Assembly (NCBI GenBank): GCA_001767455.1
Contig: MELC01000004.1
Coordinates: forward strand, 1 to 64,000
Source: Acidobacteria bacterium RIFCSPLOWO2_12_FULL_66_21
GTDB lineage: Bacteria > Acidobacteriota > Vicinamibacteria > Vicinamibacterales > 2-12-FULL-66-21
Direction of reading: 5' to 3'
Length of the DNA: 64,000 nt
Shown: positions 12,852 to 57,292 of the stretch, one piece after another
How positions within the stretch are numbered: position 1 is the first letter of the stretch
Layout: the number at the start of each line of letters is the position of its first letter
Position numbers and translations under genes: made by a program
Notes under the pieces: generated by a model
Database searches by the model: none
What the model saw: the letters and a program-made list of their open reading frames with translations, nothing else
Told to the model about the DNA's origin: nothing

Positions 12852-13016
12852 TTGATTCTTGTCAACTCCAAACTCCAAAGTTCAAACTCCAAGGGCACGC
12901 CAAAATCCAAACTCCAAACTGCGAAGGAACGCCGAATTGGAGCGGCTTGCACCTTTGGGCTTTGGAGTTGGCCTTTTGGAGTGCCTTTGGAGTTTGGAGT
13001 TTGGAATTTGGAATTG
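12852..13016 (-). repeat. Long inverted array of CAAACTCCAAA units
   Basis: The 165-base nrnA-truB spacer consists of AACTCCAAACTCCAAA-type units (12861-12920) and their reverse complement TTTGGAGTTTGGAG (about 12955-13015), around a core with AATTGGAGCGG. The whole spacer can fold on itself. It lies inside the operon, so the transcript would carry it. A shorter relative lies at 14408-14474. Confidence 0.85.
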
Positions 13017-19273: not shown

Positions 19274-20731
19274 CTACGGCGGGCAGGCGTTTGCGGTCTG
19301 CGAGACTGGCGTGACGAGCAGATCGTAATCCCGGGCGCCGACCACGCGCGCCCGGATGAGGTCGCCGGGCTGGTATCTGTCGAGGTCGCAGTCAGTTAGG
19401 AAGACGACGGGGTCGATCTCCGGCGCCTGGCCCTCGAGCCGGCCTTGCCGCACCAGCTCATGCTCGCGGGATCGTCCGTCGACCATCACGGAGACGTCAG
19501 AGCCGATTCGCGCCTTCTGGGCGGAGCGGACGATTCGCTTCTGCCGCGACATCAACGCATTCCGCCGCCTGCGTTTGACCGCGGCTGGCACGTCGTCGGG
19601 GAGATCGAACGCGCGGGTTCCCTCCTCGTGGGAATAGGTGAACACGCCGACATGGTCGAACGCCGTGCTGGCAACGAAACTGTCCAGCTCGGCGAAATCC
19701 TCCTCATCTTCCCCGGGAAAGCCCACGATGAGGGTCGTCCGCAGCGTAACCCCGGGGACGCGGGCGCGGATCCGCGCGAGCAGCGTCTCGTACGAACGCC
19801 GGTTGCCGGGGCGCCGCATGCGCTTCAGGACCGATGCGGACGCGTGCTGGAGCGGCAGGTCGATGTAGCGGCACACCTTGTCGCAGTCCGCCATCGCGTC
19901 GAGCACGTCGTCGGTGATCGTGGTGGGGTAGAGGTACAAGAGCCGGATCCATCGCAGGCCGTCGATGGCATTCAGCGCGCGCAGCAGCCGCGCGAGGGCG
20001 CCGCGCTCGCCGCGATCGATCCCGTAGAACGTCGTGTCCTGCGAGATGAGCAGCAGCTCCCGGACGCCGCGCTCGGCCATCATTCGCGCTTCGCGGACGA
20101 TCGAGTCGGCGGTGCGGCTCCGATACTGCCCCCGCAGCGTCGGGATGATGCAGAAGGCGCAGGTGTAGTCGCATCCTTCGGCGATTTTCACGTACGCGAA
20201 ATGCCTCGGCGTCGTTTGAAGGCGGGGAGTGTCGGCGTCGTAGAGGTATGTCGGCGAAGCCGTTGTTCGTGGCTCGTGACTCGTTGCTCGTCGCTCGTTG
20301 CTCGGGCGCTTCGAGTAGAAGGTCAGCGGTGCGGCTTCGTCTCCGGCATCCTCGAGCCACGAGCCACGAGCCACGAGCTGCGACGCCCGACCCCCGATCG
20401 CATCGAGGATATCTGGTACCTCCCCCGTCCCAAGCACCGCGTCGATCTCAGGAATCTCCCGTTTGAGCTCGTCGCGATACCGTTCCGCGAGGCATCCGGT
20501 GACGACGAGGCGCGAGCAGCGGCCGTCGCGTTTCTGCCCCGCCATCTTGAGGATGGCGTCGATCGACTCCTGCTTGGCCGAGTCGATGAACGCGCACGTG
20601 TTCACGACGAGCACGTCGGCGTCGGCCGCTTCCGGCGTGATCTCATGGCCGGCATCGCGCGCGATCCCGAGCATCACCTCGCCGTCGACGAGGTTCTTCG
20701 GACAACCCAGACTGACGAAGCCGATTTTCAT
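19274..20731 (-). CDS. rimO: Ribosomal protein S12 methylthiotransferase RimO, with a repeat-encoded insertion
   Basis: Radical-SAM enzyme that methylthiolates Asp89 of ribosomal protein S12. From ATG 20731 it has 485 residues. The N-terminal UPF0004 domain has its three cluster cysteines in SLGCPKN, NTCAFIDSA and TGCLAERY. The radical-SAM CxxxCxxC lies in CDYTCAFC, and a C-terminal TRAM domain follows. Between the first two domains, residues about 116-156 (including ERRATSHEPRTT) are encoded by a GAGCCACGAGCCACG inverted-repeat element found elsewhere as non-coding DNA. This makes the protein about 40 residues longer than E. coli RimO. The reading frame and all catalytic motifs are intact. 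Confidence 0.95.
   Translation of the reverse strand: MKIGFVSLGCPKNLVDGEVMLGIARDAGHEITPEAADADVLVVNTCAFIDSAKQESIDAILKMAGQKRDGRCSRLVVTGCLAERYRDELKREIPEIDAVLGTGEVPDILDAIGGRASQLVARGSWLEDAGDEAAPLTFYSKRPSNERRATSHEPRTTASPTYLYDADTPRLQTTPRHFAYVKIAEGCDYTCAFCIIPTLRGQYRSRTADSIVREARMMAERGVRELLLISQDTTFYGIDRGERGALARLLRALNAIDGLRWIRLLYLYPTTITDDVLDAMADCDKVCRYIDLPLQHASASVLKRMRRPGNRRSYETLLARIRARVPGVTLRTTLIVGFPGEDEEDFAELDSFVASTAFDHVGVFTYSHEEGTRAFDLPDDVPAAVKRRRRNALMSRQKRIVRSAQKARIGSDVSVMVDGRSREHELVRQGRLEGQAPEIDPVVFLTDCDLDRYQPGDLIRARVVGARDYDLLVTPVSQTANACPP
20264..20384 (-). repeat. GAGCCACGAGCCACG-family inverted repeat inside rimO
   Basis: Plus-strand GTTCGTGGCTCGTGACTCG-type units at 20264-20304 are complemented by CGAGCCACGAGCCACGAGC at 20353-20380. 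About 45 unrelated bases lie between the arms. The same unit occurs in the archease-rtcB spacer at 32.3 kb. The 121-base element is a multiple-of-three-compatible insertion that leaves rimO in frame. Confidence 0.8.
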
Positions 20732-20861
20732 AACTTCAGTATTCGTGAACGGGTCACGGGTGAAGGCGAGTGGTGAAGGAGAGGCAACGTGCCGAAGTCG
20801 TCCGGCCGGACGACCAGCAGCTTGTTGCCGCTGAATCACCACTCACTCTTCACTCTTTCAC

Positions 20862-22990: not shown

Positions 22991-23113
22991 GGAATTCTGG
23001 GCCAAATCGAACCACTGATTGTACCACGAGCGACAGCCACCCCCACGCTGCACGCGCCGACGGCTCTTTGGCACGAAGACCACGAAGAGGACACGAAGAC
23101 CGTCATGACGAGG

Positions 23114-23261
23114 CTGTGCCGTCGAGCCGCGCGCAGCGCGGCAAGGACAGTCGGAACCCGCACACGCACGCAGCACGCGATCCCGAGCTGTTTGCGTGTG
23201 CCGGTTCCGGCTGTCCTGCACCGCCGGCCCGCAATCATGCGGCCGGCGCTCGACGGCCCAG
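23114..23261. repeat. Multi-stem inverted-repeat element (four-helix fold)
   Basis: A closing stem (23114-23125 with 23250-23261, one mismatch) encloses three hairpins. These are a 7-bp stem with GCA loop (23126-23142), a 25-base arm pair (23144-23168 with 23193-23217, two mismatches) and a 7-bp GC stem (23223-23229 with 23241-23247). The layout is a compact four-way junction. It is flanked on both sides by opposite-orientation CACGAAGAC repeats. It could be a MITE-like element or a structured RNA; I know no named family that matches. Confidence 0.5.
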
Positions 23262-23344
23262 CCGAGTCTGACGTTCCGCTGAGGCGAGACACCTGACGGT
23301 CTTCGTCGTGATCGTCTTCGTGAGCTTCGTTCGCAGCCCGTAAT

Positions 23345-23814: not shown

Positions 23815-24180
23815 AAGAGCCGTCAGCTCGCGACAGCGGCACAGCGGAACAGCGGGGGAGCGGAGCCTTCGTGCACTTCGTGTTTGGAAAGCCGTCAGCT
23901 CGCGACAGCGGCACAGCGGAACAGCGGGGAAGCGGAGCAGCGGGGAAGCGGAGCAGCGGAACAGAAATCGATCTATTTGACAGTCTTCGTGTGCTTCGTG
24001 TCCTTCGTGCACTTCGTGTTTGGAAAGCCGTCAGCTCGCGACAGCGGCACAGCGGAACAGTGGGGGAGCGGAACAGCGGAACAGGAATCGATCTATTTGA
24101 CAGTCTTCGTGTGCTTCGTGTCCTTCGTGCACTTCGTGTTTGGAAAGCCGTCAGCTCGGGACGGCGGGACAGTGGGACAG
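23815..24180 (+). repeat. Tandem-repeat block (CAGCGGAACAGCGG and CTTCGTGTGCTTCGTG units)
   Basis: Four copies of AGCCGTCAGCTCGCGACAGC begin near 23818, 23890, 24027 and 24147. Each is followed by CAGCGGAACAGCGGGG-type units. Copies two and three continue through GAATCGATCTATTTGACAG-like sequence and CTTCGTGTGCTTCGTGTCC units. Higher-order spacing is about 72, 137 and 120 bases. Copies two and three are nearly identical over about 100 bases, suggesting recent duplication or slippage. Confidence 0.85.
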
Positions 24181-28835: not shown

Positions 28836-28887
28836 GAGGGCGTGACCCCAGTATTTCATGGCGGGGATACGCCCTTATGCCAGTATT

Positions 28888-28980
28888 TGGTGAGTTGGTG
28901 AGTTGGTGAGTTGGTGAGTTGGTGAGTTGGTGAGTTGGTGATGTCGTGAATTCACGACATCACCAATTCCACCAACTCGC
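28888..28980. repeat. GTGAGTTGG tandem array with perfect palindrome
   Basis: Six units of the 9-mer GTGAGTTGG run to about 28939. A perfect 22-base palindrome centred on GAATTC (28940-28961) and the partial complement CACCAATTCCACCAACTCGCC follow. The whole can fold as a hairpin. It fills the htrA-midA spacer on the minus-strand transcript. The same unit appears at 8.77-8.81 kb. Confidence 0.9.
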
Positions 28981-56040: not shown

Positions 56041-56559
56041 ATGGACATCTATCTCGCATGCACGGTGCGCGGGGATCGCGGCGGGCTCGCGTCGGCGCGG
56101 GCGCTTGCCGACCTGCTCGAACAGCACGGGCACACGGTCCTGACACGCCACCTCCTCGCCGACGACGTGGAGGCCGCCGAATCCACCTTGACCGAACGGG
56201 ATGTGTTCGAGCGGGACCTGCGGTGGCTCAACGTGGCGGATCTGCTGATCGCCGAGGCCTCGGGATCGAGCTTCGGCGTCGGCTTCGAGGTCGGCTACGT
56301 GCTCGGGCGCGCCGACCGCACCGGCCAGCGCGTGCTCCTTCTGTACGACTCGACGCGGCGCGCCAACGTGTCGCGGCTGATCGCCGGCAACGCGCACAGC
56401 GCGTGCACGACGTACCCCTATCGCGACGGCGCGGACCTGATGCAGTTCGTCAGCCTCTACCTCGCCCCGGTCGCCGAAACACGGAAGGACACGGAAACAC
56501 GGAAGGACGCGGACGGACACGGAAAAGCCCCGGGTTCTTTCGTGTTCTTCCGCCGTTAG
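56041..56559 (+). CDS. DNPH1/nucleoside 2-deoxyribosyltransferase-like N-glycosidase with repeat-derived tail
   Basis: 172 residues. MDIYLACTVRG, FERDLRWLNVADLLIAEASGSSFGVGFEVGYVLG and RVLLLYD match the nucleoside 2-deoxyribosyltransferase fold of DNPH1 (Rcl), with catalytic Glu in GVGFEVGY and the GSSFGVG phosphate-binding motif. DNPH1 hydrolyses deoxynucleoside monophosphates, especially 5-hydroxymethyl-dUMP. The natural domain ends near VSLYLAPVA (residue about 146). The last 26 residues (ETRKDTETRKDADGHG onward) are read from a CACGGAAG repeat and are probably unstructured. dut follows 141 bases later. Function is inferred. Confidence 0.8.
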   Translation: MDIYLACTVRGDRGGLASARALADLLEQHGHTVLTRHLLADDVEAAESTLTERDVFERDLRWLNVADLLIAEASGSSFGVGFEVGYVLGRADRTGQRVLLLYDSTRRANVSRLIAGNAHSACTTYPYRDGADLMQFVSLYLAPVAETRKDTETRKDADGHGKAPGSFVFFRR

Positions 56560-56690
56560 ACCTCCGTGTTCGTCCGTGGTTGAGATCCGTGTCTTCCCGT
56601 GTGCTTCCGTGGTTGAGATCCGTGTCTTCCCGTGTGCTTCCGTGGTTGAGATCCCGTGTCTTTCCGCGTGCTTCCGTGGTTTGATTCGGT
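56478..56690. repeat. CACGGAAG / CTTCCGTG inverted array
   Basis: ACACGGAAGGACACGGAAAC-type units (56484-56524) are followed by the reverse family TCCGTGTTCGTCCGTGG and then a 33-base unit (TTGAGATCCGTGTCTTCCCG...) present twice perfectly and once degenerately (56583-56690). The array supplies the C-terminus of the DNPH1-like protein and fills the spacer to dut. Confidence 0.9.
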
Positions 56691-57144: not shown

Positions 57145-57292
57145 TCGATAGTCGATGGTCAAAGTCCAAGTCAAAGTCCAGGTCCAAGGCAAAACGTCAA
57201 AGTCCCAGTCATCTCGTGAGAGACGACTGGGACTTTGATTTGGACTGTCGACTTTGACTGCCGACTTTGACTATCGACTATCGACTGATCAT
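57136..57292. repeat. TCGACTTTGACTG-family inverted array and bidirectional terminator
   Basis: GATAGTCGATAGTCGATGG with GTCAAAGTC units on the left and GACTTTGACTATCGACTATC on the right pair across the whole spacer. The core is a 13-bp perfect stem (57198-57210 with 57225-57237) with a 14-base loop, flanked by A-rich and T-rich sequence. It lies between convergent dut and RRM genes, and starts in the last codons of dut. Confidence 0.85.

Follow-up and report, generated by a model that had tools for sequence, protein, structure and literature searches.

Bacterial MITEs such as Correia, QMITE2 and Chunjie are elements of less than 500 bp that are non-coding, dispersed and intergenic, with inverted ends and a strong predicted fold (PMC10969869), and the element described here resembles them in all of these traits. 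In contrast to them, it is GC-rich, has array-type ends and possesses a cloverleaf core kept by covariation across five families, and neither a target-site duplication nor a parent element was found for it. REP and REPIN sequences and the CGTC-tagged palindromes are likewise dispersed intergenic palindromes. REPs measure 20-40 bp and carry a GTAG or CGTC tag, and those of the GTAG type are thought to move as folded single strands (PMC3733652, PMC2817692); some known REPs lie within other palindromes (PMC3733652). The present element differs from REPs and REPINs by its core of about 150 nt, which is composed of three hairpins and is accompanied by arrays, and no linked RAYT gene was seen. A conserved GTAG was absent from an alignment of 44 copies, and CGTC occurs in subfamily 1 within the paired stem P1 and not as an unpaired tag, the other subfamilies having GGTCTGGC and GGTCGTGC instead.

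Three further systems share single aspects with this element. bcr1 of the Bacillus cereus group is a dispersed element of about 150 bp for which a conserved secondary structure is predicted and traits of mobile elements have been reported (cited in PMC2267715). It belongs to another phylum and has another sequence. It is not known to have flanking 9-nt arrays. The Porphyromonas gingivalis MITE with an internal minisatellite is an inverted-repeat element containing tandem repeats, and differs from ours in repeat unit, structure and host (PMC4596501). The repetitive hairpin-forming elements of sponge mitochondria are hairpin-forming repeats that invade intergenic DNA, but these are organelle elements (PMC2800124).

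Fold and anatomy of the element

The window, that is, the whole stretch of 64,000 nt that was analysed, contains one copy of the element. When positions 23114-23261 were folded as RNA, the free energy was -110.3 kcal/mol, compared with -66.7 ± 4.0 in 200 shuffles (z -10.8), and the opposite strand folded nearly equally strongly (z -9.4). The initial annotation had described a four-way junction made of a closing stem and three hairpins, and this description is borne out, since the core (23107-23268) consists of the closing stem P1 and the hairpins A, B and C in a cloverleaf arrangement. The features of the copy and its neighbours are listed in Table 1.

Table 1. Features of the window copy and of the adjoining sequence
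Feature	Position	Strand	Evidence or description
Left outer terminus, CACGCTGCACGCGCCGACGGCTCTTTGG	23044..23071	+	Aligned to left and reverse-complemented right ends, 14 copies
Left array, CACGAAG units, period of about 9 nt	23072..23098	+	Unit counts and alignment of ends
P1, 5' strand	23107..23127	+	Inverted repeat; covarying helix 1
Hairpin A, CGCGC-GCA-GCGCG type	23128..23140	+	Fold; covariation
Hairpin B, 79 nt	23141..23219	+	Fold; covariation; geometry across copies
Hairpin C, GCCGGCC..GGCCGGC	23223..23247	+	Fold; covariation
P1, 3' strand	23248..23268	+	Inverted repeat; covariation
Right array, inverted degenerate CTTCGTG	23301..23331	-	Inverted repeat and alignment of ends
Neighbour, not a family member: fragment of a group II intron domain, RF02003	23355..23500	+	Rfam match
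Neighbour: 120-bp tandem units	23866..24160	-	Each with a CTTCGTG array and a AAAGCCGTCAGCTCG...CAGCGG terminus-like stretch

The two 21-nt strands of P1 are 86% complementary. In hairpin B, positions 23144-23180 pair with 23181-23217 at 84% complementarity; at 37 nt, these arms are longer than the 25 bases given at the outset. The apex of hairpin B carries a conserved motif, GCAAGCAGC..GCTGTTTGC (GCACGCAGC in the window copy), together with a conserved G.T mismatch.

The flanks in opposite orientation that had been noticed initially were also recovered. The sequence CACGAAGACCGTCATGACGA at 23092-23111 recurs inverted at 23303-23322 (85%), the CACGAAG arrays, of which the window holds 8 against 0.06 expected by chance, are inverted around the core, and both sides share an outer terminus. 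The actual unit spans approximately 23044-23331 with outer inverted termini and exceeds the extent first given (23114-23261). In 14 copies, left and right ends can be aligned as a single common terminus with the consensus CACGCTG.(G/C)ACG.GCC.ACGGCTTTT, and further 8-nt repeats lie beyond it. No sharp outer boundary was found in these 14 aligned copies, the edge being blurred by the further repeats, and no target-site duplication was seen by eye outside their aligned termini. The window copy either lacks the usual terminus at its right end or retains it in degraded form; other copies have AAAAGCCGTGGGCCCGTCTCAGCGTGG there.

RF02003 is matched directly beside the element (55.6 bits) and nowhere else in the genome, and no further group II intron family was matched in the window. 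The 120-bp tandem units are repeated right-end halves without the core.

Copies and distribution

In the source genome (6.48 Mb, 91 contigs), 32 matches were obtained by DNA search, and a covariance model built from 15 copies gave 70 matches counting both strands, which correspond to about 37 full-length copies and about 7 shortened or cut ones. One further full-length copy from a second model brings the full-length total to about 38, and some of the shortened copies retain hairpins A and C alone. The closest named relatives of one neighbouring gene are MAGs of Acidobacteria/Vicinamibacterales. At least two subfamilies are present in this genome, one having P1 GCCGTCGAGC with CACGAAG arrays and the other P1 GCCGGTCTGGC with mostly CACGGAG arrays.

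The second model, built from 44 copies, was applied to a comparison set with one genome per species, and the core was found in 28 of 162 Vicinamibacterales genomes, representing 25 of 86 genera and five families. With one genome per species in this set, recent insertions that distinguish strains were not observed. Within one family, genera carry anything between 0 and about 38 copies. In a sample of 396 genomes of the phylum, no core was found outside Vicinamibacterales under strict filters, by which weak matches are lost. Two cores in the same orientation lie 474 bases apart in another genome (L161:501-1119, G004:C38), reflecting either a local duplication or repeated insertion. In phage records, plasmid records and viral contigs nothing was found for the core, and the model gave weak matches alone on the viral-collection contigs that hold the arrays (best E 5e-4, covariance-model E-values being rough).

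An Rfam search of the window, plus a lax-threshold search of the locus, gave, for the core, matches to miRNAs and sRNAs that did not exceed chance level; in agreement with the first impression, in which no known family could be assigned, no Rfam family was matched. A published description of this family was not found in the non-subscription literature covered, and no paper was found for the array strings.

Conserved geometry and covariation

The lowest-energy folds of 96 of the 97 unique copies contain three hairpins, no more and no fewer, of which the middle one is always the longest, and the length of hairpin B had a median of 78 nt (sd 3.9). In the sequence alignment of 44 rows, 90.8% of the cells pair, compared with 33-39% with slid partners. 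Changes on both sides were found in 42 of 60 pairs, with a total of 435 cells where slid structures gave 60-98 (0 of 500 shuffles), and although the tested structure was derived from folds of the same sequences, these counts are too large for circularity to matter. The compensatory-looking changes mentioned in the initial annotation are real. That annotation had named a lone copy and stems free of covariation as findings that would speak against it; what was found is clearly the opposite, namely many copies and massive covariation. One-sided wobble changes were rare beside double changes, which speaks for DNA and against RNA, and this scarcity of one-sided intermediates fits arm-to-arm copying, while the constant geometry fits selection for the folded form.

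Pairing at the level of DNA

In an RNA under selection, G.U would be expected to be tolerated and A.C, which is G.U on the other strand, would not. Among isolated mismatches in hairpin B with two good pairs on each side, 65 were G.T/T.G and 74 were A.C/C.A, and when hairpin B was oriented by the conserved near-apical mismatch, the remaining mismatches comprised 25 wobbles and 25 A.C. These equal counts indicate that the arms stay complementary as DNA.

The near-apical position of hairpin B was G.T in 20, A.C in 14 and G.C in 10 of the 44 copies, and never A.T. An invariant G.U in 15 copies had prompted the idea of a fixed-strand RNA, which was dropped because other copies show A.C there. Within subfamily 2, the apical parts of G.T and A.C copies matched better as reverse complements in 57 of 72 cross pairs, whereas within the G.T or the A.C group the forward match was better in 57 of 64 pairs, indicating that in part of the copies hairpin B has been turned around with respect to A and C. 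On the sequence evidence, folding appears to be kept at the DNA level, as in a mobile element, and not as RNA.

Genomic position and gain

The element is non-coding and mostly intergenic. Among the copies of the source genome, 33 of 37 overlap no coding-scored ORF; the window copy is one of the four that do, its overlap being with an upstream, N-terminal overextension of the isomerase ORF, which in relatives starts at the residue matching 22990. The genes flanking these copies are tandem, convergent or divergent, with no fixed orientation.

The phosphotransferase and isomerase genes on either side of the window copy are adjacent in eight relatives, and the element is absent there. In seven of these relatives the gap between them measures roughly 20-130 bp, whereas that of L035 contains some 300 bp of another repeat, a short-unit array of the AGATC/GATCT type (L035:2680-3000), and that of the window about 1.2 kb of repeats. 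A further genus from the family of the source genome (G003, L139) has a cloverleaf of 61% identity with other arrays in this gap, its core lying in the opposite orientation relative to the genes, and the sharing of the gap by two genera points either to a hot spot or to an insertion that is old and has undergone turnover. Judged by comparison of these gaps, a gain of the element in this lineage is shown.

Arrays as a separate module

The array types observed in other genomes include CAACGAAG, CGCAGAG, CACGGAT and CACAGAT, as a rule inverted around the core, and they vary between genomes while the cloverleaf persists. Arrays also occur without the core, and CACGAAG and CACGGAG arrays surround quite different inserts in many unrelated viral-collection contigs, several of which are probably bacterial in origin. 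The presence of the same arrays around different inserts indicates that array and core are separate modules, and the CACGAAG arrays may constitute an independent module with a wide distribution.

In viral contigs from other environments (L218:765-1135, L251, L310), inverted CACGAAG arrays bracket apparent short open reading frames. In the viral contigs L368 (6727) and L385 (12135), a different long palindrome, GTCATTCCGAAC..GGATTCCTC, lies within inverted CACGGAG arrays as a palindrome inside a palindrome.

Other repeats with this overall design, of several types, are present in the window. At 20261-20378, inverted 7-nt arrays (CTCGTTG.. / CGAGCCA) lie in frame within rimO (ORF 19274-20842, minus strand) and encode RATSHEPRTTAS in a linker that is variable among relatives. 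More inverted arrays, with units of 7 to 13 nt (CACGGAAG/CTTCCGTG, AACTCCA/TTTGGAG, GTCAAAG/CTTTGAC and TTGGTGAG), are present at 56476-56681, 12864-13012, 57158-57279 and 28887-28960.

Search for a mobilising enzyme

No recurrent gene family was found beside 97 copies. Y1 transposases are present in 104 of the 162 Vicinamibacterales genomes, whether or not these carry the element, and one genome (G002) has no Y1 transposase in its contigs despite 12 element matches counting both strands; a Y1 transposase was rejected as partner because no co-occurrence link was observed across the 162 genomes. The group II intron fragment was rejected as a mobiliser because it is unique in the genome, and the four-helix-bundle (23S IVP) genes were rejected as cargo, there being four in the whole genome. 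Neither an autonomous copy with the same ends nor a transposase or other partner was found among the neighbouring genes and candidate families covered.

Discussion

The window copy is probably a member of a non-coding, intergenic family of nested-palindrome DNA elements that is MITE- or REP-like and is moved in trans by a putative enzyme. Its copies are demonstrably dispersed, conserved in geometry and changed in both arms in concert, with hairpin B inverted in some of them, and the element is absent between the same genes in most relatives. Such an element would spread in the form of DNA that is exposed in a folded single-stranded or cruciform state, for instance on the lagging strand, and a trans-acting enzyme would recognise both the fold and the arrays. 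Complementarity of the arms may persist because it is the folded form that serves as substrate, because replication or transposition copies one arm from the other, or for both reasons. In integrons, the R and L boxes of attC are bound by IntI on the folded strand, and this serves as an analogy for folded-strand recognition only.

A MITE had been one of the two initial proposals, and the small size, non-coding nature, intergenic position, inverted ends and gain in a lineage agree with it, while a target-site duplication, a sharp end and an autonomous partner were not found. A MITE of the classical kind, namely an internally deleted DDE-transposase insertion sequence with the inverted arrays as termini and the cloverleaf as incidental cargo, is unlikely. 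It would explain why a small, non-coding, dispersed element has inverted termini common to both ends and why CACGAAG arrays are found on both sides of other inserts in unrelated contigs, but the element is very GC-rich, and it is the arrays that change from genome to genome and the cloverleaf that is retained, which is the opposite of the behaviour expected of cargo.

Passive amplification without a dedicated enzyme, in which recombination and template switching multiply the copies and quasi-palindrome correction during replication matches the arms, is considered rather improbable. The concerted arm changes with few intermediates, the inversion of hairpin B, the tandem half-elements and the nested repeats around the locus are all consistent with such a process; by itself, however, it would not account for the constancy, throughout five families of the order, of a set of three hairpins in fixed sequence with a hairpin B of 78 nt. 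A cis-acting chromosomal element kept for the host, for example a bidirectional terminator or a nucleoid-protein site, would suit the intergenic position, the stable hairpins and the filling of the same gene gap in two genera, but is highly improbable for an element that is missing between the same genes in eight relatives and varies from 0 to about 38 copies among genera of one family. The second initial proposal, a structured RNA, whether non-coding or an element of 5' leaders on a fixed strand, is hardly credible in spite of the strong fold and the covariation, given that G.U shows no excess over A.C on either strand, hairpin B changes its orientation towards A and C, the reverse strand folds similarly, the orientation to neighbouring genes is not fixed and Rfam gave no match.

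The family of nested-palindrome DNA elements is real and was previously unlabelled. Inverted arrays such as CACGAAG/CTTCGTG are common in the genomes of this group, no name having been found for them, and one array set is now tied to a strictly conserved cloverleaf whose arms change together as DNA. The count of G.T versus A.C mismatches is a simple test that separates DNA palindromes from RNA structures; covariation by itself, however strong, would have produced a false claim of a new RNA. It is possible, though doubtful, that these elements constitute a distinct class of mobile DNA, with a single-stranded or cruciform cloverleaf as substrate, an invertible middle arm and interchangeable inverted 9-nt arrays occurring across unrelated bacteria, acted on by a putative enzyme that would read shape more than sequence. 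The family is searchable, as the covariance model works across an order, and this offers a route towards the enzyme that would move it.
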